In this document: positions 48,630 through 63,012 of the stretch, piece by piece
Layout: the number at the start of each line of letters is the position of its first letter
How positions within the stretch are numbered: position 1 is the first letter of the stretch
NCBI RefSeq assembly: GCF_005670685.2
Contig: NZ_CP062008.1
Coordinates: 3,534,001-3,598,000, forward strand
Source of the DNA: Mycolicibacterium mucogenicum DSM 44124
GTDB lineage: Bacteria > Actinomycetota > Actinomycetes > Mycobacteriales > Mycobacteriaceae
Reading direction: 5' to 3'
Length of the DNA stretch: 64,000 nt
The notes under the pieces: generated by a model
Told to the model about the DNA's origin: nothing
Seen by the model: only the letters and a program-made list of their open reading frames with translations
Database searches by the model: none
Translations under genes and position numbers: made by a program

Positions 48630-50510
48630 ATGAGCGAAAGCCCTCGAGTCACGCGCCTGGTCATGTACAAGCACGGCATGGCGCTGGTCGAACGCAGTGG
48701 CCCGGTCGACGGTGATTTCGCCCTGACGTTCCGCCACGCCCAGATGAAGGACGTGCTGAAGTCGCTGTCGGTGACTGGGACGGGCACCGACCTGGCCGTC
48801 GGGGCGGTCTCGTTCGACACCCCGACCGACCCGCACACCCAACTGGGCGGCCGCGGGGTGCAGATCGAGTCCGGCAACGCGCTGCGCGGGCTGTTCGACG
48901 GCCTGCGGGGCCGCACCGTCGAAGTCGACTGCGGCGCCGCGCGCCATCGGGGCGAGGTGATCGGCGTCGACGAATCCGCAAAGTATCGACAGGTGCTGGT
49001 CCTGCGCACCGACGCCGGGTCGGTCAGCCTGATCGAACTGGCCGACGTCGCTGCCGTGACGCTGGCGGAGGGACCGTCACGCGACAACCTCGAGTACCTG
49101 CTGGACCGGTCCCGCGCGCTGACCGCGGGCCAGAATTGCCAACTGGGCGTACAGGTTCGGGGCAGCGGGACCGTCCAGGTGTCCTATGTGGTGCCGGCCC
49201 CGCTGTGGCGGCTGTCGTACCGCCTGGTCCGCGACGGTGACGCACTGGTCTTGACCGCGATGGGCATCGTGCACAACCCGGTCGACGAAGACCTCACGGA
49301 CGTCGCGCTGACCCTGACCACCGGCGAACCGGTCTCCTTCGACATCGACCTGTACGAGAGCAAGCACGCGTATCGGGAGGTCGTCGAGGAAAGCCGCCGT
49401 GGCGCGGTGCCCGTGTCCGCCGCGGCGAAGAAGACCCGGTCGCCGGCCGAGGTCCCGGTGGCGATGGCGATGCCCGCTCCTGCCGGCGCCGGGTTTTTCG
49501 ATGCGTATGCCGATGCCGTCGACGATGTCGAAACCGCCGACCGCGGTGAGTATTTCGAGTACCGGCTCAGTACCCCGGTGTCGCTCAAGCGCGGCGGCGC
49601 GTCGATGATTCCGCTGGCGGTACAGGCGGTGGACGGGGTCCGGCGCGAGCTGGTGTGGAACGGCCGCGACCGCTCCCCCGAGATCGTCCTCGTCTTCACC
49701 AACACCGCGGGCATCGTGCTCGAGGAAGGCCCAGCCGTCATCTACGAGCAGGACGCCTATGCCGGTGAAGCGATGGTGCCCTTCACCGCCCGTGACGCGA
49801 AAGTGCGGCTGCCGTTCGCGAAAGATCTTGCAGTGCGCTGTCGGCACACCTCGACCGTCAGCGACGTCACCGCCCGCGTCCGTCTGGCCCGCGCCGCGCT
49901 GGTACACGAGCAGCGCCGCGAGATGGTGCACACCCTGCGGGTCGAGAACGACCATGCCGAGCCGGTCGACGTGATCTTCGAGATCACCCGTTTTCAGGGG
50001 CGCCGCGTCGAACCGCGGGACAACGTGACCGCGATCGCCGACGACGGGACCAACCACCGGATCACGGTCACCGCGGCCGGTCACGGGGCCGTCGAGGCCA
50101 CGGTGCTGGAAAGCTGGCCGCTGTCCAGTGAGATCGACTACGAGCACCTCGCGCCGGGTCAGCTCGAGGAGTGGCTGGCCGACCGGTCCCTCGACGCGGC
50201 CACCATCACCACGCTCGGCGATGTCCTGGACAAGTGGGCGGCCGCCGAGCGGCTGGAATCGGACGCCGAGCAGGTCGAGGCTGCGCGCTCGGGTGACTAC
50301 GAGGCGCAGAGCCGAATCTCGGAGCAGCTCAACGTCCTCGGCACCGACGGACCCGAAGGCGAGCTACGGCGCCGGCTCATCGTGGACCTGGAGGCGCTGC
50401 GGGACCGCAGCACCGAGCAGGGCGAGAAGGTCCGTCAGCTCCGCGACGATGCGGAAGCGCACCGGCGGGCCGCGTGGGACGAACTCCAGCGGCTCATCGA
50501 CGCGCCCTGA
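48630..50510 (+). CDS. DUF4139-like protein, unknown function
   Basis: A 626-residue protein. The middle part (APLWRLSYRLVRDGDALVLTAMGIVHNP, then DLTDVALTLTTGEPVSFDIDLY) resembles the DUF4139 beta-rich domain. The C-terminus (about 520-626) is charged, with coiled-coil character (LESDAEQVEAARSGDYEAQSRI). No signal peptide is seen. It lies 28 bp after cobIJ on the same strand, and its last 17 nt overlap convergent cobK. A role in cobalamin metabolism is possible only by position. As I recall the M. tuberculosis order, other genes occupy this place. Confidence 0.75.
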   Translation: MSESPRVTRLVMYKHGMALVERSGPVDGDFALTFRHAQMKDVLKSLSVTGTGTDLAVGAVSFDTPTDPHTQLGGRGVQIESGNALRGLFDGLRGRTVEVDCGAARHRGEVIGVDESAKYRQVLVLRTDAGSVSLIELADVAAVTLAEGPSRDNLEYLLDRSRALTAGQNCQLGVQVRGSGTVQVSYVVPAPLWRLSYRLVRDGDALVLTAMGIVHNPVDEDLTDVALTLTTGEPVSFDIDLYESKHAYREVVEESRRGAVPVSAAAKKTRSPAEVPVAMAMPAPAGAGFFDAYADAVDDVETADRGEYFEYRLSTPVSLKRGGASMIPLAVQAVDGVRRELVWNGRDRSPEIVLVFTNTAGIVLEEGPAVIYEQDAYAGEAMVPFTARDAKVRLPFAKDLAVRCRHTSTVSDVTARVRLARAALVHEQRREMVHTLRVENDHAEPVDVIFEITRFQGRRVEPRDNVTAIADDGTNHRITVTAAGHGAVEATVLESWPLSSEIDYEHLAPGQLEEWLADRSLDAATITTLGDVLDKWAAAERLESDAEQVEAARSGDYEAQSRISEQLNVLGTDGPEGELRRRLIVDLEALRDRSTEQGEKVRQLRDDAEAHRRAAWDELQRLIDAP

Positions 50511-51219
50511 CCCAGGCTTCGGCTTCGTCGACGGTGGCGGCTGTCGCCACGCCGTCGGGCAGCACCGGCCGGTCCACCATGATCACCGGAACATTCAGCG
50601 CGGCAGCGGCATCCAACTTCGCGCGCGTCATGCCGCCACCGCTGTTCTTCGTGACCAGGGCGTCGATCCGGTGGTCTCGCAGCAGCGCCAGCTCGTTGTC
50701 GTAGTCGTACGGACCGCGCGACAGCAGGATGTGGTGCTGCGGCGGCAACGTCTCGGCGTCCGGCGGCGTGACGGCACGGATGAGGAACCAGGCGTCCGAC
50801 GCGCGGAAGGCCGTCGTGCCCGAACGTCCCGTGGTGAGGAAGACCCGTTGGTAGCCAAGGTCTTTGACGGTCTGCGCGGCCTGCCGGTCATCGGCGACGA
50901 CGATGGCGTCACCGTACGGCCACGCCGGCCGCGCCAGGACCAGGTGCGGCAGCCGCAGGCTTGCGCAGGCCTGGGCGGCGTTGGCGGTGATGGTGGCGGC
51001 GAACGGGTGCGTGGCGTCGACGACGGCGGTGATCTCGTTGTCCTGCAAGTAGGTCCGCAGGCCGTCGACGCCACCGAAGCCGCCGATCCGCACCGGGCCC
51101 ACGGGTAGCGCCGGGTCGGGGACGCGGCCGGCCAGGGAACTGATCAGCTCGACATCGAGGTGCAGCCGTTTGGCCAGTGCCCGCGCCTCGGACGTCCCAC
51201 CCAGGAGCAAGACTTTCAC
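50494..51219 (-). CDS. cobK: precorrin-6A reductase CobK
   Basis: NADPH-dependent reductase of the aerobic corrin pathway, 241 residues. It begins MKVLLLGGTSEARALAKRLH, with a Rossmann-type GGTSE loop. It also has VVDATHPFA and ALVTKNSGGGMTRAKLDAA, both CobK/CbiJ signatures. GTG start with AGAGG upstream. It is convergent with and overlaps the DUF4139-like gene by 17 nt. It lies downstream of cobL-cobM, with a 60-bp inverted repeat in the gap. Confidence 0.94.
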   Translation of the reverse strand: MKVLLLGGTSEARALAKRLHLDVELISSLAGRVPDPALPVGPVRIGGFGGVDGLRTYLQDNEITAVVDATHPFAATITANAAQACASLRLPHLVLARPAWPYGDAIVVADDRQAAQTVKDLGYQRVFLTTGRSGTTAFRASDAWFLIRAVTPPDAETLPPQHHILLSRGPYDYDNELALLRDHRIDALVTKNSGGGMTRAKLDAAAALNVPVIMVDRPVLPDGVATAATVDEAEAWVRARR

Positions 51220-51239
51220 CGGTTACCTCTCGTCTCTCT

Positions 51240-51300
51240 CGCGAGCAGACGTAAACCTGTCGATTTCGGCCCCGAAATGACAGTTTTGCGACTGCTCGCG
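51240..51300. repeat. long imperfect inverted repeat between cobM and cobK
   Basis: Arms of about 28-30 bp starting CGCGAGCAG and ending CTGCTCGCG, with inner matches AAAC/CTGTC and ATTTCGG/CCGAAAT around a GC-rich centre. A transcript would fold into one long hairpin. There is no T-run, so this may be a dispersed repeat or a processing/termination structure. Confidence 0.65.
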
Positions 51301-51308
51301 GCAATACA

Positions 51309-52064
51309 TCAGTGGGTGGCCCCGCGGCGCCGGCCGCTGGAATACAGGTAACTCTCGTCAAATCCCCGGGCGCCCAGCGCATCTCCCACGAAGATGACCG
51401 CGGTCTTGGTGATGCCCGCCGCTTTGGTCTGCTCGGCCAGTTCGGACAGGGTACAGGTGATGACCTGCTCGGTCGGCCAGCTGACGAAAGCCACCACCGC
51501 GCAGGGGGTTTCCGGGCGGTATCCGCCCTCGAGCAGCTGCGGGACGATGTTGTCGATCTGCGCGGCCGCCAGGTGCAGCACCAGGGTGGCGCCGGGCTTG
51601 GACAGCGATACCAAATCCTCGCCGTGGGGCATCGCGGTCGACAGTGTCGCCACCCGGGACAGGGTGACGGTCTGGGCCACGCCGGGCACCGTGAGCTCGC
51701 GCCCGAGCGCCGCGGCGGCAGCAGCGAAAGCCGGTACGCCGGGCACGATTTCGTAGTCGATACCGAGCTCGTCGAGCCGGCGGCACTGCTCGGCCACCGC
51801 GCTGTAGATCGACGGGTCCCCCGAATGCAGGCGCGCCACGTCGAGCCCTGCTTCGTGCGCGGCGACCGACTCGCCGATGATCTGCTCGAGGTTGAGCGGA
51901 CCGGTGTCGACGATCCGCGCGCCGGGCGGGCATTCCGCCAGCAGGTCGTCGGGCATGATCGAGCCGGCGTACAGACAGACCTGGCATGACCGCAACAGCC
52001 GCTGCCCCCGCACGGTGATGAGATCGGCGGCACCGGGTCCCGCGCCGATGAAGTACACCGTCAT
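51309..52064 (-). CDS. cobM: precorrin-4 C11-methyltransferase CobM
   Basis: SAM-dependent corrin methyltransferase, 251 residues. It begins MTVYFIGAGPGAADLITVRG, with the GAGPG SAM loop. It also shows CLYAGSIMP, LHSGDPSIYSA and EIVPGVPAFAAAAA. The ATG overlaps the cobL stop (ATGA), so cobL-cobM are translationally coupled. cobK follows after 89 bp. Confidence 0.96.
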   Translation of the reverse strand: MTVYFIGAGPGAADLITVRGQRLLRSCQVCLYAGSIMPDDLLAECPPGARIVDTGPLNLEQIIGESVAAHEAGLDVARLHSGDPSIYSAVAEQCRRLDELGIDYEIVPGVPAFAAAAAALGRELTVPGVAQTVTLSRVATLSTAMPHGEDLVSLSKPGATLVLHLAAAQIDNIVPQLLEGGYRPETPCAVVAFVSWPTEQVITCTLSELAEQTKAAGITKTAVIFVGDALGARGFDESYLYSSGRRRGATH

Positions 52065-53248
52065 TCTTTGACCACCGTCCACTGGGTTATCGGCAATGCC
52101 GGGCGCCAACCGGTGAAGCCACCGATCGGTTCGCCGTGATAATGCTGGAACCGGCGCAGTTCGCCACCCAGCTTCGAAAAGAGCTGCACCACAAAGGCTT
52201 CCGACTCTGCCGTCACCGCATTGGCGACCAGCCGGCCACCGGATTCGAGCGCGTCGAAGCAGGCGTCGAACAGCCCCGGTTGGGTCAGGCCACCGCCGAT
52301 GAAGATGGTGTCCGGGCCGGCCAGATCCTGGAATCCCTCCGGCGCTGCGCCGCGGACATCGACACGGACGCCGAATGTGTTGATGTTGCGGGTGATCCGC
52401 TCGCGGCGCCCGTCATCGCTTTCGAACGCGACGGCCCGGCCAGCTGACGCCCGGCACCATTCGATCGCCACACTGCCCGAACCCGAGCCGACGTCCCACA
52501 GGATTTGATTCGGGCGCGGCTGCAGCGTGGCAAGGGTCACCGCGCGGATGTGCTGTTTGGTGATCTGCCCGTCGTGGTCAAAGGCCGTGTCCGCCAGTGC
52601 CGCCCCGATGCGCAGGTCAGGGACATATTGCACGGCAATGACATTGAGCGCGTCGACGTGCGGATCCTGGGTCTGCCACTCCTGGGCCGTCATCGTCGTG
52701 ATGCGTTCGGCCGGCCCGCCGAGTTGTTCCAGGACGGTGAAGTCGGACTGGCCGCGCCCGGCTTCAGTGAGCAGCCGGGCCAGCGCCCGCGGGGTGTCGG
52801 CGCCCTTGGACAACACGACTGCCTGCCCGCCCAGTCGCATCGCGGTGTGCGGTGCGGCGTTGACGAGGCTGATCACCTCGGTGTCCTGCACGCTCCAGCC
52901 CAGTCGCGCGCACGCCAGGGTCACCGAGGACACGTGTGGCAGCACCGTCACGCGATCCCGGCCGAACAACCGGATCAGGGTGGCGCCGATGCCGTGCAGC
53001 ATCGGGTCGCCGGAGGCCACCACGTGCACGTCCCCCAGCCCGTCGAACAACGTGGGCAGGGCCGCCAGCATCGGCGACGGCCAGGCCTTCCGCTCGGCGG
53101 TGACGTCCGCGTCCAGCAGATCCAGCTGCCGCGGACCGCCGAAAATCACGGTGGCGCTTTGCAGTTCAGTGCGCGCCGCGCCACCGAGCCCGGCCATGCC
53201 GTCGGCGCCGATGCCGACGACGATGATCTTGCCTTCGTTACCGGTCAC
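52061..53248 (-). CDS. cobL: precorrin-6Y C5,15-methyltransferase CobL
   Basis: Bifunctional enzyme that methylates C5 and C15 and decarboxylates the C12 side chain. The 395-residue product has an N-terminal CobE-like methyltransferase domain (IIVVGIGADGMAGL, VVASGDPMLHGIG). Its C-terminal CobT-like SAM domain has LWDVGSGSGSVAIEWCR and PDTIFIGGGLTQPG. GTG of [11 protein letters not shown] overlaps the upstream SDR stop (GTGA). Order SDR-cobL-cobM-cobK on the minus strand. Confidence 0.95.
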   Translation of the reverse strand: MTGNEGKIIVVGIGADGMAGLGGAARTELQSATVIFGGPRQLDLLDADVTAERKAWPSPMLAALPTLFDGLGDVHVVASGDPMLHGIGATLIRLFGRDRVTVLPHVSSVTLACARLGWSVQDTEVISLVNAAPHTAMRLGGQAVVLSKGADTPRALARLLTEAGRGQSDFTVLEQLGGPAERITTMTAQEWQTQDPHVDALNVIAVQYVPDLRIGAALADTAFDHDGQITKQHIRAVTLATLQPRPNQILWDVGSGSGSVAIEWCRASAGRAVAFESDDGRRERITRNINTFGVRVDVRGAAPEGFQDLAGPDTIFIGGGLTQPGLFDACFDALESGGRLVANAVTAESEAFVVQLFSKLGGELRRFQHYHGEPIGGFTGWRPALPITQWTVVKE

Positions 53249-54003
53249 CTCGGCATCTTCCGCCAGATGGCCTTCGGCACAAAACGAGTCGCAAAGATCA
53301 GCGGGCGAATGCCCCACGGCACCCAGACCGCCGACTTGCCCTTCCGCAGCGCCGTCGCGGCAGCCTCGGCGACCTGCGCGGGCGTGCTCGACATCGGTGC
53401 CGGGTCCATGCCCTCGGTCATCCGGCCGATCACAAAGCCGGGCCGCACGATGAGCAATCGGATGCCCGTGCCGTGCAGCGCGTCGGCCAACCCGCACGCG
53501 AAGCCGTCCAGGCCCGCCTTGGCCGATCCGTAGACGTAGTTGGCCCGGCGGACCCGCGCCCCGGCGATCGACGAGAACACCACCAACCGTCCCCGACCCG
53601 CGGCGCGCATGCGCTGCGTCAACAGGGTCAGCAGGTTCACCTGCGCCACGTAGTCGGTGTGGACGACGGCCACCGCGTGCGCGGCGTCGTCTTCGGCCCG
53701 GGCCTGTTCGCCGAGGACGCCGAAGGCCAGCACCGCGGTGCCGATGGGCCCGTGCTCGGCTTCGATCGTGCTGAGCAACGCGGCATGCGAGGCCAGATCG
53801 TCGGCGTCGAACTCGCAGGTCTGTACCTCGGCGGCGCCGGCCGCTCGGACCGCCTGCACCTCGTCGATCAGCTGGTCGGCCCGGCGGGCAGCGAGCACCA
53901 CCGTGTTGCCCGGCGCCAGCCGGATGGCCAGTTCCAGGCCGATCTCACTGCGGCCGCCGAAGATGACGACCACCTCGCCGCCGGTATCCGCCGTGTCGTT
54001 CAC
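53245..54003 (-). CDS. short-chain dehydrogenase/reductase
   Basis: A 252-residue SDR. The nucleotide loop [16 protein letters not shown] is a variant GxxxGxG, and the catalytic YxxxK is in [13 protein letters not shown] with serine in VFSSIAG upstream. It resembles the cell-wall DprE2-like SDR group and the gene I recall as Rv2073c beside cobL. The substrate is unknown. The GTG start at 54003 is 7 nt after GATAAT, an acceptable -10 box; another GTG at 54018 would overlap that box. The stop overlaps cobL. Confidence 0.85.
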
Positions 54004-54467: not shown

Positions 54468-54531
54468 CGTCGAAAAGGACCAAATGGTCGCTGTGACGAC
54501 CTCGAGAACAACCACTTGGTCCTTCTCGACG
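54468..54531. repeat. 21-bp-arm inverted repeat after the biliverdin reductase gene
   Basis: Arms 54468-54488 and 54511-54531, CGTCGA-AAGGACCAA-TGGT type, match with two mismatches around a 22-bp loop. Likely an RNA hairpin that ends or stabilises the upstream transcript; there is no T-run. Confidence 0.7.
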
Positions 54532-54557
54532 CCAAGACGTTCACCACTACACACCAC

Positions 54558-54573
54558 CGACAACTATTCGTCA
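54558..54573. promoter_or_regulatory. putative IclR-regulator operator before iclR
   Basis: CGACAACTATTCGTCA, an imperfect palindrome (GAC.A-N4-T.GTC). It is directly followed by TAAGAT (54574-54579), a TANNNT -10 box. The same motif with one change lies at 55638-55653. Confidence 0.6.
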
Positions 54574-54610
54574 TAAGATGCTCAGCGTCCCCAGACCGGC
54601 AGGAGCATCG

Positions 54611-55507
54611 ATGGCACGCGGCACTCCGCTGGAAGACAGCGCACGGGCAGGCTCACCGCCCACCGACCGCGTCGTCAGCATCATCGAACTCCTGGCGCAG
54701 CAGTCCGAACCGAGTTCGGTGGCCTCCATCGCATCCCGACTGGACCTCAACCGCGCGACCGTCACCTCGATCCTGCTGGCCCTGGAGCGCGCGGGTTGGG
54801 TTGTGCGCCTTGCTGATCGGAGTTACACCCTCGGTCCGGGCATGCTCGGCGTCGCCGAGGCCGTGCGCAATGCCCTGCCCCTGCCGGAAAACCACACCGA
54901 GGTCCTGCACGACCTGGCACATGCCACCAAATGCGGTGTTTCGCTGGCCATGGTCGGCACCACCGAGATGACGTTCGTCAGCGTGGTGCGCGGCGTCGGC
55001 CACATCCCGGGCGGCGTCGGTGTCGGCGTGCGCCTGCCGTTGACGCCGCCGGCCGGCGCGACGGTGATCGCCCGCCGCGACGCGGCAAGCCAACAACAGT
55101 GGCTGGCCGGGGCGCCGCAGGAGCTGCGCCCCGACTTCAGCAACCTGCTCGACCAGCTGCGCAAGGACGGCGTCGCCATATTCGATTTCGGCGACGCCAA
55201 CCCCGAAGTGCTGGGCGTACTGGGCGACGTCGCCGAACTGCTCTCCGAGCACCCCCGGCGCAGTGCGCTACGGCAGCGGGTTTTCGAGACGCTGGTCAGC
55301 CTCGGCGGAAAGCCTTACAGCACGGCACAGCTCGAATCCCCCGAGCCGCTCGCCGTGAGCTATCTGAGCACCGCCGTGGACAACGCCGCCGGCCACCCCG
55401 CCTACGAGCTTCAGCTCGGGCCGCTGGATCCGTCGGTCAGCGCCGCCGACCGCGCGCGGTACATCCACGAATTGCGCTCGGCCGCAGCAAAGCTCGGCCA
55501 GCACTAG
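54611..55507 (+). CDS. IclR-family transcriptional regulator
   Basis: A 298-residue regulator. The N-terminal winged helix spans DRVVSIIELLAQQ to LDLNRATVTSILLALERAGWVVR, and YTLGPGMLGVAEAV begins the linker and effector domain. The effector domain is less conserved than usual. ATG with RBS AGGAG 5 nt upstream. It is followed 163 bp later by the secreted-protein/P450 operon in the same direction. Sharing of the 16-bp motif suggests it regulates itself and that operon. The inducer is unknown. Confidence 0.82.
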   Translation: MARGTPLEDSARAGSPPTDRVVSIIELLAQQSEPSSVASIASRLDLNRATVTSILLALERAGWVVRLADRSYTLGPGMLGVAEAVRNALPLPENHTEVLHDLAHATKCGVSLAMVGTTEMTFVSVVRGVGHIPGGVGVGVRLPLTPPAGATVIARRDAASQQQWLAGAPQELRPDFSNLLDQLRKDGVAIFDFGDANPEVLGVLGDVAELLSEHPRRSALRQRVFETLVSLGGKPYSTAQLESPEPLAVSYLSTAVDNAAGHPAYELQLGPLDPSVSAADRARYIHELRSAAAKLGQH

Positions 55508-55637
55508 CCACCGTCACAACCCAACCCGCCGACCGTCCGGCGGGCACTTTCGCGACCCACTCAGCGGAAAACAATGCTTGCGCGTCCGTCGCGGGGATGC
55601 TTACCATCTGCCCGTCGCCAATTATTTGGCAATTGAA

Positions 55638-55653
55638 CGACAATTATTCGTCA
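55638..55653. promoter_or_regulatory. second copy of the putative IclR operator
   Basis: CGACAATTATTCGTCA, 15 of 16 bases identical to 54558-54573. It lies 18 bp before the secreted-protein start, in an AT-rich stretch where a promoter is expected. Confidence 0.6.
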
Positions 55654-55670
55654 CTATTTCGAGAGCGTGG

Positions 55671-58127
55671 ATGGACACAGCGACGACGCTGCATCGCATT
55701 GGTAGCTCGGCGGGATCGGGCCACGCCCGGTTCATCGGCCGCGTAGGCGCACTGGCCGTTGCCCTCGGCATCGGCATCGCCGTCGCGAACGGTCCCGCCA
55801 TCTGCCTGGCCGACACCGGCACCGGCGCCACCTCCGGCGCGTCCACGTCCGCGTCGTCCGCCGACACCCCGTCGCCGGCCACCAAACCGAAGCCCGAGAA
55901 GCCCGCGAAGAAGGCGAAAAAGCCCAAGCGACAGAACGACTCGTCGGCCACGACACCCGACAAGCCCGGGGACACCGACAGCCCGAAGTCCGACACCCCC
56001 GACCAGACGCCGGCGACGACGAATCCCGGATCGGGCAACCCGGCCGAGACCACGAATTCGACGCCCAAGAAGTCCCGGCAGAAGCAGCAACGCAACCGGA
56101 CGACCAAACCCATCGCGTCAGTCGCCCAACCTGCCGCCGCGACGACTCAGACCGCCCCGAAGGCCGCCACCCCGACCGCGGCCGCCACCGCACCGAAACC
56201 GGCTGCAGCCCAGGCACCTTCAGTGGAGTCCGCTGCCACCACGGTCTCGTCGGCCCTGTCCGCCGCCGCGACCAAGATCAACACCCTCACGGCGACAACG
56301 CATCCCGTCTCCACGGCCGCCACCGGCGGCAACTTCGTCACGCATGTGGTGTCGAGCCTGCTCGGCGCCATCGGGCTCGTCCCGCACGCCGGAACCAGTC
56401 CCACCGCTCCGCCGCAGGCGCCGGTGCTGTGGACCCTCTTCAGCTGGATTCGCCGCGAGATCGGCCACACGTTCTTCAACTCCGCGCCGATCGTCAACTA
56501 CAAGCAGACCGAGACCAGCCAGACCTTCGGCGGCGTCATCAAGGGTGACTTGAAGGCCACCGACGCCAACGGCGACAAGCTCACCTACACCGTCGACAAG
56601 GGCCCGACGAAGGGCGCCGTGGCGGTCCGCCCGGACGGCACGTTCACGTACACCCCAAGCGACGCACTGGCATTCACCGGTGGCACCGACTCGTTCACGG
56701 TCACCGTCGACGACCGGCCGGGCAATCCGTTCCACATCAACCTGCTGAAACTGTTCCAGCCGAACGCCGGTGCCACCACCACCGAGACGGTCACTGTCAC
56801 GGTGAAGCCGACCAGTCCGCTCGGCACAGCCGACCAGATCGCGCTGGAACAGAAGGCCCAGGAGATCGTCAACACGCCGCAGGTGCAGGCTGCCATCGAG
56901 GCGCTCAAGCAGGCCTGGCTGGCGCATGCGCAGCAGCGGTTCGGCCTCGTCGGCGGCGTCGACGCCAAGAACCTGGCCCTGCTCGACGCAGCCGCCCGGG
57001 AGCAGGCACTCAATGCCGCGATGACAGTGGTCAACAACGATCCGGACAACCCGCTGGTGATGGCCGTCGATATGCGCGCGCACAGCTGGTACGGCATCGA
57101 CACCCCCGGCGGGAGGTTCATCTACGACAACCCCGACACCATCTACCGCACCATCCCGGTGCGCAGCGACTCGACGTACGTCATCAGCGGCAAGTACCTG
57201 GGCGGCGTCCCCGCCGACGGGAACTTCGGCGTCTACGCCGACATCAGCGATGCCAAACCGATCGGCAATCTGTTGGCGAAGGACCTCGTGGTCAACGCCG
57301 ACGGTACGTTCACCATCACGGTGGACGGCAATCCCACCCAGCCGGGGCAGACCAACCACATCTATCTGCCGCCGGAGGCCCAGCAGATCTTCGTCCGGTA
57401 CACGATGGCGGATTGGAACACCGAATCGGCGCCCGGCCTCACCGTGACGCGCACGAGCGGTCCGGCGGGCTCGCGTGCGGAGAGCTTCGACGAGATGGTC
57501 GCCCACACCGCCGACATCCTCGCGAATTTCGGCACCAGCGCACACAATACGGCGCTCGACATCGTCACCCTCAACCTGCAGACCGGGCAGCTCAAGCCGC
57601 CCAACACGCTGACGCAGCCGTTCAACTTCCCCGGCACCCTGGTGTCGCAGAAGCAGAGCCTCGGCTACTTCCAGCTGGCCGACAACCAGGCTCTGGTCAT
57701 CACGATCAACCCCGGCAACGCCGGATACTTCGTGGTGCCGGTGACCAACGACTGGGAACTGTCGCCCGGCGACGGCACCGCGCAGACGAGCCTCAACAAC
57801 GCACAGTCCATCGCCAATGCGGATGGCACCTACACGCTCGTCATCTCCCCCGACGACCCCGGCGTGGCCAACTGGGTCTCCACCGGCGGCCTCAACCAGG
57901 GCACCCTGTACATCCGGTTCCAGGCGCTCGATGCCGCCTCGTCGGCGGTGCCGATGATCGTCTCGCAGCAGGTCGTCACCCTCGATCAACTCGGCACCGT
58001 GCTGCCGGCCGGCACCAAGTACGTGACCGACGCCGAAAGGCAGGCCCAGCTCGCCGCCCGCCAGGACGGCTACAACGACCGCTTCGGCCCCTTCCCGCAG
58101 ATCACCACAGGAGCACAGTCCGTATGA
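55671..58127 (+). CDS. large secreted protein with cadherin-like repeat
   Basis: An 818-residue exported protein. A signal-type hydrophobic segment lies at residues about 21-46 (RFIGRVGALAVALGIGIAVA). Then comes a 150-residue Thr/Pro/Ala/Lys-rich linker, a VCBS/cadherin-like unit (LKATDANGDKLTYTVDKGP ... GTFTYTPSDALAFTGGTD), and a long C-terminal domain resembling DUF1214-type proteins (YDNPDTIYRTIPVRSDSTYV). The ATG of MDTATTLHRIG is chosen so the signal is near the N-terminus. Its stop overlaps the P450 start (ATGA). Function unknown; surface binding or processing of a P450 substrate is a guess. Confidence 0.8.
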   Translation: MDTATTLHRIGSSAGSGHARFIGRVGALAVALGIGIAVANGPAICLADTGTGATSGASTSASSADTPSPATKPKPEKPAKKAKKPKRQNDSSATTPDKPGDTDSPKSDTPDQTPATTNPGSGNPAETTNSTPKKSRQKQQRNRTTKPIASVAQPAAATTQTAPKAATPTAAATAPKPAAAQAPSVESAATTVSSALSAAATKINTLTATTHPVSTAATGGNFVTHVVSSLLGAIGLVPHAGTSPTAPPQAPVLWTLFSWIRREIGHTFFNSAPIVNYKQTETSQTFGGVIKGDLKATDANGDKLTYTVDKGPTKGAVAVRPDGTFTYTPSDALAFTGGTDSFTVTVDDRPGNPFHINLLKLFQPNAGATTTETVTVTVKPTSPLGTADQIALEQKAQEIVNTPQVQAAIEALKQAWLAHAQQRFGLVGGVDAKNLALLDAAAREQALNAAMTVVNNDPDNPLVMAVDMRAHSWYGIDTPGGRFIYDNPDTIYRTIPVRSDSTYVISGKYLGGVPADGNFGVYADISDAKPIGNLLAKDLVVNADGTFTITVDGNPTQPGQTNHIYLPPEAQQIFVRYTMADWNTESAPGLTVTRTSGPAGSRAESFDEMVAHTADILANFGTSAHNTALDIVTLNLQTGQLKPPNTLTQPFNFPGTLVSQKQSLGYFQLADNQALVITINPGNAGYFVVPVTNDWELSPGDGTAQTSLNNAQSIANADGTYTLVISPDDPGVANWVSTGGLNQGTLYIRFQALDAASSAVPMIVSQQVVTLDQLGTVLPAGTKYVTDAERQAQLAARQDGYNDRFGPFPQITTGAQSV

Positions 58128-59335
58128 CCGCCACCGCCGTCACCTTCACTCCCGGTTCCGCCGCCACCTGGCGCAGCCCGTGGGCCATGTATGCCGCACT
58201 GCGCGAACACGATCCGGTTCACCACGTTGTTCCCGCGCACGCGCCGGACAAGGACTATTGGGTGCTGTCGCGCTACGCCAACATCTCCGCAGCGGCCAAG
58301 GACCACGAGACCTTCTCGTCTGCCGAGGGCCTCACCTTCAACTACGACGACATGGAAGCCGTTGGCATCAAAGATAATCCGCCGATGGTGATGCAGGACC
58401 CGCCGGTCCACACCACCTTCCGGCGGCTGGTGGCCAAGGGATTCACCCCGCGGCAGGTCACCGCGATCGAACCCAAGGTGCGCGAATTCGTGGTGGACCG
58501 CATCGAGAAGTTGCGCGCCAAGGGCACCGGCGACATCATCACCGAGTTCCTCAAACCCATGCCCACCATGGTGGTCGCGCATTATCTCGGTGTCCCGGAA
58601 AAGGATTGGGATCGCTTCGATGCGTGGACCGATGCCATCGTCGCCGCCAACTCCACCGGGCACCAGCCCGCGGCCGCCCCCGCCATCGCCGAATTGTTCA
58701 CCTACTTCAACGAATTGATCGCCTACCGCCAGAAACGTCCCGAGGACGACACCGTCTCGCACCTGGTGGAAGCCGGCTTCGGCGCCGACGGCGACATGTC
58801 CGGAATCCTGTCCATCCTGGGCTTCGCCTTCACGATGATCACCGGCGGCAATGACACCACGACCGGAATGCTCGGTGGCGCAGTGCAATTGCTCACCGCC
58901 CGCCGCGACCAGCGACAGCTCCTGATCGACGACCCGGCGCTGATCCCGGATGCCGTGGAGGAACTGCTGCGGCTCACCTCGCCGGTGCAGGGCCTGGCGC
59001 GTATGACGACCCGCGACGTCGAGATCGAGGGCACCACGATTCCGGCCGGCCGCAAGACCTTCCTGCTGTACGGCTCGGGCAACCGCGACCACCGGCAGTT
59101 CGGCTCGGACGCCGAGGAGTTGAACGTGCTGCGGCGCCCCGCGCAGATCCTCACGTTCAGCCACGGCAACCACCACTGTCTCGGCGCCGCGGCGGCCCGC
59201 ATGCAGGCCCGCGTCGCGCTCGAGGAACTCCTGACCCGGTGTCCGGATTTCGACGTCGACGCCGACGCGGTCGAGTACGCCGAAGGCAGCTATGTGCGCC
59301 GCCCCACGCACCTGCCGTTCACGGCGCAGCCATGA
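58124..59335 (+). CDS. cytochrome P450
   Basis: A 403-residue P450. The I-helix oxygen motif is GGNDTT (AGxDTT variant) within LGFAFTMITGGNDTTTG. The ExxR is EELLR. The heme loop is FSHGNHHCLG with Cys352 as iron ligand. It looks fully functional and soluble. It is coupled to the secreted-protein gene by ATGA and to the ferredoxin by ATGA, so the three are translated together. The substrate is unknown; many mycobacterial P450s act on lipids, sterols or terpenes. Confidence 0.95.
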   Translation: MTATAVTFTPGSAATWRSPWAMYAALREHDPVHHVVPAHAPDKDYWVLSRYANISAAAKDHETFSSAEGLTFNYDDMEAVGIKDNPPMVMQDPPVHTTFRRLVAKGFTPRQVTAIEPKVREFVVDRIEKLRAKGTGDIITEFLKPMPTMVVAHYLGVPEKDWDRFDAWTDAIVAANSTGHQPAAAPAIAELFTYFNELIAYRQKRPEDDTVSHLVEAGFGADGDMSGILSILGFAFTMITGGNDTTTGMLGGAVQLLTARRDQRQLLIDDPALIPDAVEELLRLTSPVQGLARMTTRDVEIEGTTIPAGRKTFLLYGSGNRDHRQFGSDAEELNVLRRPAQILTFSHGNHHCLGAAAARMQARVALEELLTRCPDFDVDADAVEYAEGSYVRRPTHLPFTAQP

Positions 59336-59523
59336 GCCGGGTGGAGGTCGACCCCGAGATCTGCATCGGCATGGGTATGTGCGAGGGAATCAGCGCGGCA
59401 TTCCGGGTCGGGGACAACGGCACGGTCGACATCGGTGACACCACCGACGTCGACCCGCTGGTGTTGCGCCGGGCCGTGGCGGCCTGTCCGACGGGCGCGT
59501 TGCGCATGGCCGACGACCTGTAA
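59332..59523 (+). CDS. [3Fe-4S] ferredoxin, P450 redox partner
   Basis: A 63-residue ferredoxin. Cysteines C11, C17 and C52 (CIGMGMC ... ACPTG) fit the P450-type [3Fe-4S] family; Met14 sits where a [4Fe-4S] protein has its second cysteine. The start overlaps the P450 stop (ATGA), which makes it the obvious electron donor to that P450. A ferredoxin reductase is not encoded nearby. Confidence 0.93.
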   Translation: MSRVEVDPEICIGMGMCEGISAAFRVGDNGTVDIGDTTDVDPLVLRRAVAACPTGALRMADDL

Positions 59524-59603
59524 CGCGGCGCCACAACCGGCCCGCCGACGGCAACCAACCGGCATGACGCACGTCACCCGGGCATGGTTCGATCTAAGAC
59601 GCC

Positions 59604-61223
59604 ATGACTATCGCGAGCCCTTTCCCCGAGGTCCAGATCCCGACGACGGCCGTCTCCGAGTACATCTTCGGTGATCTGGCCGAGTCGGACGCCGATCGCA
59701 TCGCCATCACCGAGGTCGCGACCGGTGCCGAGTACACCTACCGCGAACTGACGACCCGGATCGAGGCGTTCGCCGGCGCGCTGGCCGCCCGCGGTCTGGG
59801 CGTCGGCGACGTGGTCGGCCTACTGGCGCCCAACAGTGCCGCATTTGCCGTCGCCTTCCACGGCATTCTGCGGTCCGGCGCCACCGCCACGACCATCAAC
59901 GCGCTGTTCACGGCCAAGGACATCGCGAAGCAACTGACCGACTCCGGTGCCGCCATGCTGATCACCGTCACGCCGCTGGCGCCGCAGGCGTTGCAGGCCG
60001 CCGCCGAGGTCGGGCTGACAGCCGATCGCGTGGTCGTGCTCGACGGCCCCGGAACCGCGGCCGACGGCCATCCCAACGCGGCCGAACTGCTCGACGCCGC
60101 ACTGCCCGCACCCGAGGTCAGCTTCGACCCCGCCACTCATCTGGCAGCCCTGCCCTACAGCTCGGGCACCACGGGAAACCCCAAGGGCGTCATGCTCACC
60201 CACACGAACCTCGCGGCGAATGTGGCGCAGATTCGGCCCATCCAGGGCCTGGTCCCCGAGGACCGCGTGCTCGCGGTGCTGCCGTTCTTCCACATCTACG
60301 GCATGACGGTGCTGCTCAACTCCGTCCTGCACGCCCGGGCCCGACTGGTGATCATGCCCAGCTTCGATCTCGCGCTCTTCCTGAAGACCATCCAGGACCA
60401 CAAGTGCACGTTCGCGTTCATCGCGCCGCCGGTCGCGGTGGCGCTGGCGAAGCACCCGATGGTCGACTCGTACCGGCTCGACTCCCTGAAGGGTCTGATG
60501 TCCGGCGCCGCGCCGCTCGACGACGACCTCGGCATGGCGGTCGCCGACCGGCTCGGCTGCCCCATCGTGCAGGGCTACGGCATGAGTGAGCTGAGCCCGG
60601 TGAGCCACTGCATGCCGTTCGACGGCGGCCGCGAACTCGTCGGCGCCGTCGCACCGTTGAGCTCGTGCGGCTGGACGGTGCCGAACGCCGTCAGCAAGAT
60701 CGTCGACCCCGATACGGGAGCCGAGATCGGCCGGCCCGAGCACGGCCTCAGCGAGGTCGGCGAACTGTGTTTCCGCGGTCCCAACGTCATGGCCGGCTAC
60801 CTCAACAACGACGCCGCCACCCGCGAGACCATCGACGACGACGGCTTCCTGCACACCGGCGACCTGGCCCGGGTCGACGCCAGCGGCTGCATCTACATCG
60901 TCGACCGGCTCAAGGAACTCATCAAATACAAGGGCTACCAGGTGCCCCCGGCCGAACTCGAGGCCGTGCTGCTGACGCACCCCGGTATCGCCGATACGGC
61001 AGTGGTCGGGGTGCGCGACCCGGAATCGGGCGAGGAAGTACCCAAGGCGTTCGTCGTCCTGCAGCCGGAGTCCGGGTTGACGGGCGACGAGATCATGGAT
61101 TTCGTCGCCGGCCAGGTCGCGCCGTACAAGAAGGTCCGGCAGGTCGCGTTCATCGACGCGATCCCGAAGTCTGCCGCCGGCAAGATTCTGCGCCGCGAAC
61201 TGCGCGACATCCGCGAGGTCTAG
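59604..61223 (+). CDS. 4-coumarate-CoA-ligase-like acyl-CoA synthetase (FadD family)
   Basis: A 539-residue ANL-superfamily ligase that activates a carboxylic acid as acyl-AMP, then acyl-CoA. Motifs: P-loop YSSGTTGNPKGVMLTH, the QGYGMSELSP block, TGDLARVD, and the C-terminal catalytic lysine PKSAAGKILRREL. Complete by length. It starts 80 bp after the ferredoxin and is probably in the same operon. A P450 oxidation followed by CoA activation would make sense for degrading a hydrophobic substrate. Its TAG stop shares CTAG with the convergent gene. Confidence 0.92.
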   Translation: MTIASPFPEVQIPTTAVSEYIFGDLAESDADRIAITEVATGAEYTYRELTTRIEAFAGALAARGLGVGDVVGLLAPNSAAFAVAFHGILRSGATATTINALFTAKDIAKQLTDSGAAMLITVTPLAPQALQAAAEVGLTADRVVVLDGPGTAADGHPNAAELLDAALPAPEVSFDPATHLAALPYSSGTTGNPKGVMLTHTNLAANVAQIRPIQGLVPEDRVLAVLPFFHIYGMTVLLNSVLHARARLVIMPSFDLALFLKTIQDHKCTFAFIAPPVAVALAKHPMVDSYRLDSLKGLMSGAAPLDDDLGMAVADRLGCPIVQGYGMSELSPVSHCMPFDGGRELVGAVAPLSSCGWTVPNAVSKIVDPDTGAEIGRPEHGLSEVGELCFRGPNVMAGYLNNDAATRETIDDDGFLHTGDLARVDASGCIYIVDRLKELIKYKGYQVPPAELEAVLLTHPGIADTAVVGVRDPESGEEVPKAFVVLQPESGLTGDEIMDFVAGQVAPYKKVRQVAFIDAIPKSAAGKILRRELRDIREV

Positions 61224-62001: not shown

Positions 62002-63012
62002 TCAGGCCGCGTCCGGGTCCTGTGCGATGCCGTCCGCGGCCTTGCGCAGCAACGTCAACGCGGTGCGCGCCCACGTCTGCGTCGCGCCCGCGAGCCCGCA
62101 CGAGGGCGTCAGGCCGACGCGCTCGCGCAGCACCGTCCGCGGGAACCCGAGCCGGTCGGTGACACTCGCGGCGGCCGCGGCCACCGTCTCGACCGGGACG
62201 GGACGCTCCGGAGCGACGCCCGGCAGCACGCCGAGCATGATGGTCCGGCCCGCTTCGATCCACTCGCCGATGCCGTCGAGGTCGGCCGCGGTCAGCTTGG
62301 TCACGTCGACGGAGATGGCGCTGAAGGCGGTGCGCGCCAGGGTCTTCCACGGCACGTCCGCGGCGCACACGTGAATGCTCGCCTGACCCCCGACGGTCGC
62401 GATGCACTCGTCGAGCAGGCTGGCGGCGAGCGGCGCGTCGACCGGCGCCACCGGCGACATCCGGGTTACCCCGGCAAGCCGCCCGGCCAGCGCGGCGGGC
62501 AGTGACGGCTCGTCGAACTGCACGACGACGTCGGCGTCGCAGCGCCGCGCGACCTCGGCGCGATGGTGCGCGACGCCTTCGGCGAGGGAGCCGGCCAGGT
62601 CCCGCAGCGCGCCCGCATCGGTGATGGCCCGGTGACCGCCGGGCAGTTCGAGTTCGGCGGCCAGCGTCAGTGGACCGGGGACCTGCACCTTGATGGTCCG
62701 TCTGGTCCCGCGCAGCCCGGCTTTCTCCCATGCCTCTTCGAGCGCGTCGACATCCTCGTCGAGCAGGCCGGTGGCGCGGCGCACGACGGCACTGCGGCCG
62801 GATGCGATGCGGTAACCGCGGGGGACGGTGTCGAGGCCGATGTCGACGAGCAGTGCGCCCGCCCGCCCGATGATGTCGGCGCCGACGCCACGCGCCGGCA
62901 GCTCCACGAGATGCGGCAGGGCGGGCAGCTCACCGACGACGACTGCCGCCGCTTCCCGGGCGACCGTCCCCGGCCACGAGCCGATACCGGTTGCCTGGGC
63001 GAAAACAGTCAC
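62002..63012 (-). CDS. MetE C-terminal-domain-like protein
   Basis: A 336-residue protein related to the C-terminal half of cobalamin-independent methionine synthase. It begins MTVFAQATGIGSWPGT and contains VQVPGPLTLAAEL, VVQFDEPSLPAAL (metal/substrate region), IHVCAADVPW (zinc-type His-x-Cys) and LTPSCGLAG. Half the size of MetE and lacking its N-terminal domain, so it is probably not a full methionine synthase. It matches the gene I recall as Rv3015c next to ligA. GTG start. Substrate uncertain. Confidence 0.85.
   Translation of the reverse strand: MTVFAQATGIGSWPGTVAREAAAVVVGELPALPHLVELPARGVGADIIGRAGALLVDIGLDTVPRGYRIASGRSAVVRRATGLLDEDVDALEEAWEKAGLRGTRRTIKVQVPGPLTLAAELELPGGHRAITDAGALRDLAGSLAEGVAHHRAEVARRCDADVVVQFDEPSLPAALAGRLAGVTRMSPVAPVDAPLAASLLDECIATVGGQASIHVCAADVPWKTLARTAFSAISVDVTKLTAADLDGIGEWIEAGRTIMLGVLPGVAPERPVPVETVAAAAASVTDRLGFPRTVLRERVGLTPSCGLAGATQTWARTALTLLRKAADGIAQDPDAA

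Follow-up and report, generated by a model that had tools for sequence, protein, structure and literature searches.

According to a family-wide study (PMC8222616), IclR-family proteins that act as local regulators are winged-helix proteins encoded beside their targets, and they bind A/T-rich palindromes that can stand in tandem about two helix turns apart. Centre-to-centre distances of 18-22 nt between such tandem palindromes are linked there to tetramer binding. A locus that resembles these systems in all of the features named (winged-helix protein, A/T-rich palindrome, tandem spacing, and regulator beside the targets) lies in Mycolicibacterium mucogenicum DSM 44124, within a stretch of 64,000 nucleotides (contig NZ_CP062008.1, positions 3,534,001 to 3,598,000) that we call the window. 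As judged from the sequence, the conserved unit is made up of iclR, a gene for a probably exported DUF1214-type protein (sec), a cytochrome P450 gene, and a ferredoxin gene. We consider it likely that this is a local switch, in which an IclR-family protein would control the exported-protein/P450/ferredoxin operon. The half-site here is TGACAA/TGACGA, whereas IclR group 2 in PMC8222616 has TGRAACA; neither "Mycobacterium" nor "P450" appears anywhere in that paper's main text.

The individual components also have described counterparts. The P450 belongs to the same family as M. tuberculosis CYP130A1 (CYP130, Rv1256c), which a 2019 review (PMC6469627) describes as an orphan enzyme. Small single-cluster ferredoxins with the motif CXX?XXC(X)nCP are likewise encoded beside P450 genes in Mycobacterium marinum; the variable position is Met here, and His, Asn, Tyr, Ser, Thr, or Phe in the set listed in PMC6237146. 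The C-terminal domain of the Sec protein matches DUF1214-type proteins (PF06742; structure 6ANS, named uncharacterised), whereas the preceding part of the protein, with its signal-like N terminus, Lys/Pro-rich linker, and Ig-like domain, sets it apart from them. No description of the gene set was found among the titles and the beginnings of abstracts of mainly open-access literature on CYP130, mycobacterial IclR operators, unusual ferredoxins, IclR tetramers, DUF1214, PPE with IclR, P450 with IclR, and CYP130 with Rhodococcus. The type of switch is familiar; the gene set is unfamiliar and looks new.

The features of the locus are the following (window coordinates; strand given for all features other than the palindromes):

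54558..54573: candidate operator O1, a single palindrome at the iclR promoter; kept in loci L083, L084, and L085; without a 22-bp partner
54574..54579, +: proposed -10 hexamer of iclR, TAAGAT, abutting O1; TAAGAT in three of four aligned genomes, TACGAT in the fourth
54611..55507, +: iclR, IclR-family regulator, 298 aa; HTH_IclR (PF09339) at 5.6e-10
55578..55607, +: proposed operon promoter, TTGCGC-18-TACCAT; GATGCTTACCATCTGC invariant in the four cassette genomes aligned
55616..55631: candidate operator O2, weaker palindrome CGCCAATTATTTGGCA with three mismatches to the motif; the distance to O3 downstream is exactly 22 bp in each of the four aligned cassette genomes
55638..55653: candidate operator O3, strong palindrome before the operon, from motif match and conservation
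55671..58127, +: sec, encoding an 818-aa protein that is probably exported; a signal-like N terminus is followed by a Lys/Pro-rich linker, a single Ig-like domain, and, at the C terminus, a DUF1214/6ANS-like domain
58124..59335, +: cytochrome P450, CYP130 paralogue, 403 aa; 592 bits to CYP130 2uuq, paralogue clade supported at 96/91
59332..59523, +: single-cluster ferredoxin, 63 aa, CXXMXXC(X)nCP; from sequence motif and position next to the P450 gene

Candidate operators and promoters

The iclR-side copy of the 16-bp motif is CGACAACTATTCGTCA (O1) and the sec-side copy is CGACAATTATTCGTCA (O3), and the two agree in 15 of 16 bases. An earlier sequence-only reading of this DNA had reported a quasi-palindrome of this kind before iclR and before the secreted-protein gene, and both copies are indeed present. 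It had also proposed a genome-wide search for the motif; in the whole 6,099,273-base genome the exact form occurs at O1 and O3 only, and none of the 197 other sampled genomes of the genus has a match. Inexact matches are uninformative, because with up to two mismatches the genome contains six places compared to five for the control pattern read backwards. The reason for excluding chance is not this count but the conservation of both sites: O1 and O3 are kept at 15 or all 16 positions in L083, L084, and L085, whereas their flanking sequence varies. The O2-type second palindrome, which was absent from the earlier reading, is also kept in these three loci, 22 bp upstream of the sec-side site. The O2-O3 spacing falls within the 18-22 nt of IclR-family tandem palindromes.

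The N-terminal winged helix of the IclR protein scores above the curated cut-off of PF09339. The start of iclR is likely at 54611, because the sequence from 54578 to 54611 shows length differences between species; AGGAG is found five bases before this start. The earlier reading had placed both motif copies at a core promoter. This stands for the iclR copy, which abuts a -10-like hexamer, and does not for the sec copy, which lies downstream of the best-conserved promoter candidate. There, TTGCGC 18 nt upstream of TACCAT suggests a transcription start near 55614, just ahead of the tandem operators. A similar layout can be read in L040 and L041, where TTGCCT-17/18-TACAGT is followed by tandem sites. 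Both arrangements, at iclR and at the operon, would suit repression. Upstream of iclR, a palindromic repeat of ~65 bp (54468-54532) recurs at three other places of the genome with 77-80% identity; it is present in L083 and was not seen in L084 or L085.

In the mechanism that we propose, two IclR dimers would bind cooperatively to O2 and O3 without inducer. These sites, 22 bp or about two helix turns apart, lie just downstream of the proposed operon promoter, and the bound dimers would block transcription of the operon. One dimer on O1 would repress iclR itself. An inducer, perhaps lipophilic and either taken up or made by the cell, would release the IclR protein, and the operon would then yield the exported DUF1214-type protein, the CYP130-type P450, and the dedicated ferredoxin, which would pass electrons to the P450. 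The acyl-CoA ligase gene next door is conserved in its own right and may be reached by read-through.

The regulator could also act with the opposite sign. PcaU and PobR activate their targets, and the IclR family has members of both signs. Moreover, the best likeness of the IclR protein to a named subfamily is a weak one to the PcaR/PcaU/PobR type (TIGR02431 over residues 21-170, with a score far below the cut-off). We nevertheless regard activation of the operon as unlikely, since in the window, L040, and L041 the best promoter candidate, itself a proposed one, is located upstream of the operators, an order that suits a block.

The distribution of the palindromes was followed across related genomes. 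A P450 scan of the named genomes gave 36 loci, among which L083, L084, and L085 (P450 92-96% identical) contain iclR, sec, P450, ferredoxin, and ligase genes in the same order as the window. Among the matches listed from 198 genus genomes, the IclR relatives were eight at 52-62% identity and two at 41-42%. The palindrome (up to three mismatches) was found near all eight closer relatives; of the two distant ones, the first was without it at this threshold and the second had only a poor match ~3 kb away. An operator matrix was trained on 16 sites from IclR-clade loci and applied to 43 IclR-homologue loci, comprising the best 30 of a longer genus list and 13 from a 396-genome sample, in which 22 genomes had an IclR match at E <=1e-45. 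Where the homologue was at least 49% identical, a site of at least 15 bits was present at 18 of 19 loci and one of at least 20 bits at 16 of 19. Below 49% identity, no locus out of 24 had a site of at least 15 bits. The backward control (1,677,137 bases) gave six places of at least 12 bits, two of at least 15, and none of at least 20. Nine high-identity loci had been held apart from training (L008, L211, L214, L215, L216, L217, L218, L222, and L223; L212 and L213 were excluded as apparent duplicates), and six of these reach 20 bits and eight reach 15, although the L008 site had already been seen before the matrix test. These results support the view that the palindrome behaves as an operator of this IclR clade.

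The geometry of the sites was analysed with an offset scan of 27 sites, in which the best second match was sought 16-40 bp away on either side. Six of these sites adjoin an iclR start, and none of the six had its best neighbour at 22 bp. Of the remaining 21 (among which the L038-L041 sites, located between divergent genes, are counted), 19 had it at exactly this distance. In L200 and L202 the 22-bp neighbour was second best, and the L202 score was at background level. In the window's clade, L037, L042, and L044, the partner at 22 bp is a clear second palindrome (11-18 bits); in the other loci it is degenerate or only a half site. The weaker tandem member is on the upstream side in every case with a clear target gene. 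The spacing recurs before quite different genes; several of the sites belong to closely related genomes and cannot count as independent.

Several observations weigh against this assignment. The agreement with the matrix is partly by construction, and most of the held-apart loci are close to training loci (several with neighbour genes 80-87% identical). Among them, L217 (54%) is without a site, and only a fragment of the secreted-protein gene was found there; L222 and L223 have a best site of 15.4 bits. The best neighbour of the held-apart target sites is at 22 bp in three of five (L211, L214, and L218) and at 29 bp in L215 and L216, and many 22-bp partners are low-scoring half-sites. High scores also occur without the regulator: stretches with the degenerate pattern from genomes lacking an orthologue contain sites of 22.9-26.6 bits in seven of seven cases, and L096, also without an IclR orthologue, has one of 20.1 bits. 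Conversely, the L093 site precedes P450 and ferredoxin genes, yet no iclR is found in the 17 kb fetched. In addition, the effector part of the IclR protein has no Pfam effector-domain match at 0.001 and gives no hint at the inducer, and a strict sigma-70 consensus scan detected no promoter in the region; the promoter positions are proposed ones. Of the eight high-scoring sites without an orthologue, seven sit in open frames of >300 codons, and two have their best neighbour 22 bp away, with scores of -13.7 and -4.6.

The matrix score alone was rejected as operator proof on account of the 22.9-26.6-bit sites in orthologue-free genomes. The degenerate palindrome was likewise rejected as a genome-wide probe: 60 of the 198 genomes contain it and the control also gave many matches, and with one mismatch it was no better than the control in 11 genomes. 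Three further observations concern individual sites. L209, from a genome without an IclR orthologue, has a 26.4-bit site at 2472 whose best neighbour (-4.6 bits) is 22 bp away; this may be chance or the site of a more distant regulator. In the backward control, L219 and L220 (IclR homologues of 36-42%) reached 15.8 and 17.5 bits, which may reflect a different palindrome. The IclR genes of L222 and L223 are second copies (49-51% identical), their two genomes encoding an 85-96% copy as well, and a P450 of a different type is located nearby.

The CYP130 paralogue, its ferredoxin, and the exported protein

P450s with >40% identity are assigned to the same family and those with >55% to the same subfamily. 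Compared to solved structures, the P450 of the window scores 592 bits with M. tuberculosis CYP130 (2uuq, residues 8-400), and the next best P450 reaches 230 bits. Its identity to 2uuq is clearly >55% as judged by eye on the alignment, which places it in the family and subfamily of CYP130A1. It is not a CYP130A1 orthologue by the 70-row P450 tree (which contained no M. tuberculosis CYP130 row), because it falls in a separate clade while the other CYP130 of the genome groups with ordinary genus copies. The supported group (96/91) unites the window P450 with those of L083, L084, L085, L040, L041, and L093 and a truncated copy in L037. The P450s of this paralogue clade are those of the operator-bearing loci. 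The truncated gene (L037, 8105-9821) is located behind tandem operators and beside a phage-type integrase gene.

The two CYP130-type genes of the genome also differ in their surroundings. The window's copy has the IclR site and its own ferredoxin, whereas the ordinary copy (L210, G000:C1:1275889-1277091, 67% identical to it) has an adjoining TetR-family gene and no ferredoxin was found there. A ferredoxin gene adjoins the P450 gene in all six intact fetched relatives of the paralogue clade (L040, L041, L083, L084, L085, and L093). In contrast, none was found at 30 of 30 ordinary CYP130 loci, namely 29 genus loci with 1.5-kb flanks only and the ordinary copy of this genome. Of another 32 named loci, one (L108) has a ferredoxin gene, ~3 kb away. 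The motif of the window's ferredoxin, CIGMGMC...CP, contains three cysteines and Met at the variable position; three distant relatives compared have Asn there.

The N terminus of the Sec protein is hydrophobic and signal-like, as read from the sequence by eye, and the protein is probably exported. With PF06742 the whole protein scores 25.8 bits and the C-terminal part alone 28.3 bits, barely above the curated cut-off of 25. PF06742 matches all eight Sec-type proteins at E <=0.05, several of them under the curated cut-off, and a profile of the eight matches 6ANS at 2.5e-19. These proteins are known mainly from loci adjoining iclR orthologues. The proteins encoded beside iclR in L038-L041 have the same DUF1214-type domain, with weak Pfam scores. 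The predicted structure of the Sec protein from residue 253 on had a mean predicted local distance difference test (pLDDT) score of 48 and was set aside.

The acyl-CoA ligase and the remaining alternatives

Two further features follow the operon:

59580..59603, +: conserved element immediately ahead of the ligase gene, outside the cassette, which probably represents the promoter and ribosome-binding site of this gene; TTCGAT invariant in 12 genomes aligned
59604..61223, +: 4-coumarate-type acyl-CoA ligase, 539 aa; downstream neighbour, not a member of the conserved unit by its conservation across the genus

The sequence-only reading had joined all four downstream genes into one inducible route, in which a surface protein handles a compound, the P450 with its own ferredoxin oxidises it, and the ligase activates it with CoA. 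The gene junctions are as it described: sec and P450 genes overlap by ATGA, as do P450 and ferredoxin genes, and the ligase start at 59604 lies 80 bp past the ferredoxin end. The ligase gene is on the same strand and comes after the cassette in the window as well as in L083, L084, and L085. Furthermore, a ligase relative of 65-67% identity is located 2-7 kb from the CYP130 gene in seven of 11 Gordonia loci.

The conservation of the ligase points the other way. Relatives at E <=1e-150 are present in 95 of 198 genus genomes, and the matches listed for IclR at 49% or more come from none of the other 94. In the close relatives G157 and G149, the gene preceding the cassette and the ligase gene are neighbours, 94-98% identical to those of the window, and the cassette is absent. 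Scars of the ferredoxin gene remain between them, corresponding to 20 residues at 75% in G157 and 38 residues at 79% in G149 (L151, 10224-10283, and L152, 6137-6250); the cassette was therefore once present and then lost, with remains that differ between genomes. The converse, insertion of the cassette into the ligase locus, was rejected on the same scars. The element upstream of the ligase gene is common to all 12 genomes picked for alignment, with and without the cassette. In Gordonia, the ligase relative is opposite in strand to CYP130 in seven of seven loci, and a glycosyltransferase gene and a YbjN gene lie between in L107 and a glycosyltransferase gene nearby in L108, which points to a chance neighbourhood. 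This linkage was judged weak as functional support. L119, L120, and L093, which correspond to the L040, L041, and L093 clusters (12-17 kb), have the P450 and no ligase match at E 1e-4. A single pathway ending in CoA activation is thus quite improbable, and the ligase was rejected as a cassette member on its wide occurrence, its retention after cassette loss, and its own upstream element; read-through from the operon is possible. What survives of the proposed route is one arrangement of secreted protein, P450, and own ferredoxin behind an IclR-clade operator; the ligase step falls away, and nothing found supports the terpene, sterol, or aromatic acid suggested as its compound.

That the repeated 16-mer reflects chance or core-promoter similarity without any regulator is hardly credible: a promoter-like AT content could be common to two copies, and degenerate palindromes and high matrix scores do occur in genomes without an orthologue, but it is opposed by the conservation of the sites, by their occurrence together with the IclR clade, and by the recurrent partner at 22 bp, which unrelated sites mostly lack.

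The wider surroundings were also inspected. Among the window neighbours at 50494-53497 and 62002-63012 are genes of cobalamin synthesis (CobK, tetrapyrrole methylases) and one that resembles cobalamin-independent methionine synthase. A 24% relative of the C-terminal part of the Sec protein is encoded ~9 kb from the ligase gene in a genome that lacks the cassette (L155, 1230-2024).

Other targets of the clade and implications

The likely IclR switch of the window is one of several arrangements in which the operator occurs. In the window's clade it stands before the exported DUF1214 protein with a P450; in other genus species it precedes an exported DUF1214 protein beside which no P450 was found. 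An operator site lies ahead of a PPE gene in L042-L044, with another ahead of a PE-PGRS gene in L042. In L199 (2406-5090), a site precedes genes for a fatty-acid desaturase, an acyl-carrier-like protein (read from sequence), and a P450. Further sites in L200, L201, and L202 have no clear target. These few loci suggest that the IclR clade deals with surface proteins and lipids. Tentatively, and as a possibility that we rate well below the local switch itself, the clade may be a switch for cell-surface make-up and not for a catabolic route. To our knowledge, few dedicated local regulators of surface proteins have been found.

If this is true, one signal would set surface proteins and oxidised envelope lipids together. 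The local unit by itself would provide a member of the CYP130 family with its own regulator, operator, and ferredoxin, so that a reporter could be used to look for the inducer, which would in turn narrow down the substrate. The operator would also offer a regulon that can be read across species, with the same switch placed before surface proteins of quite different families.

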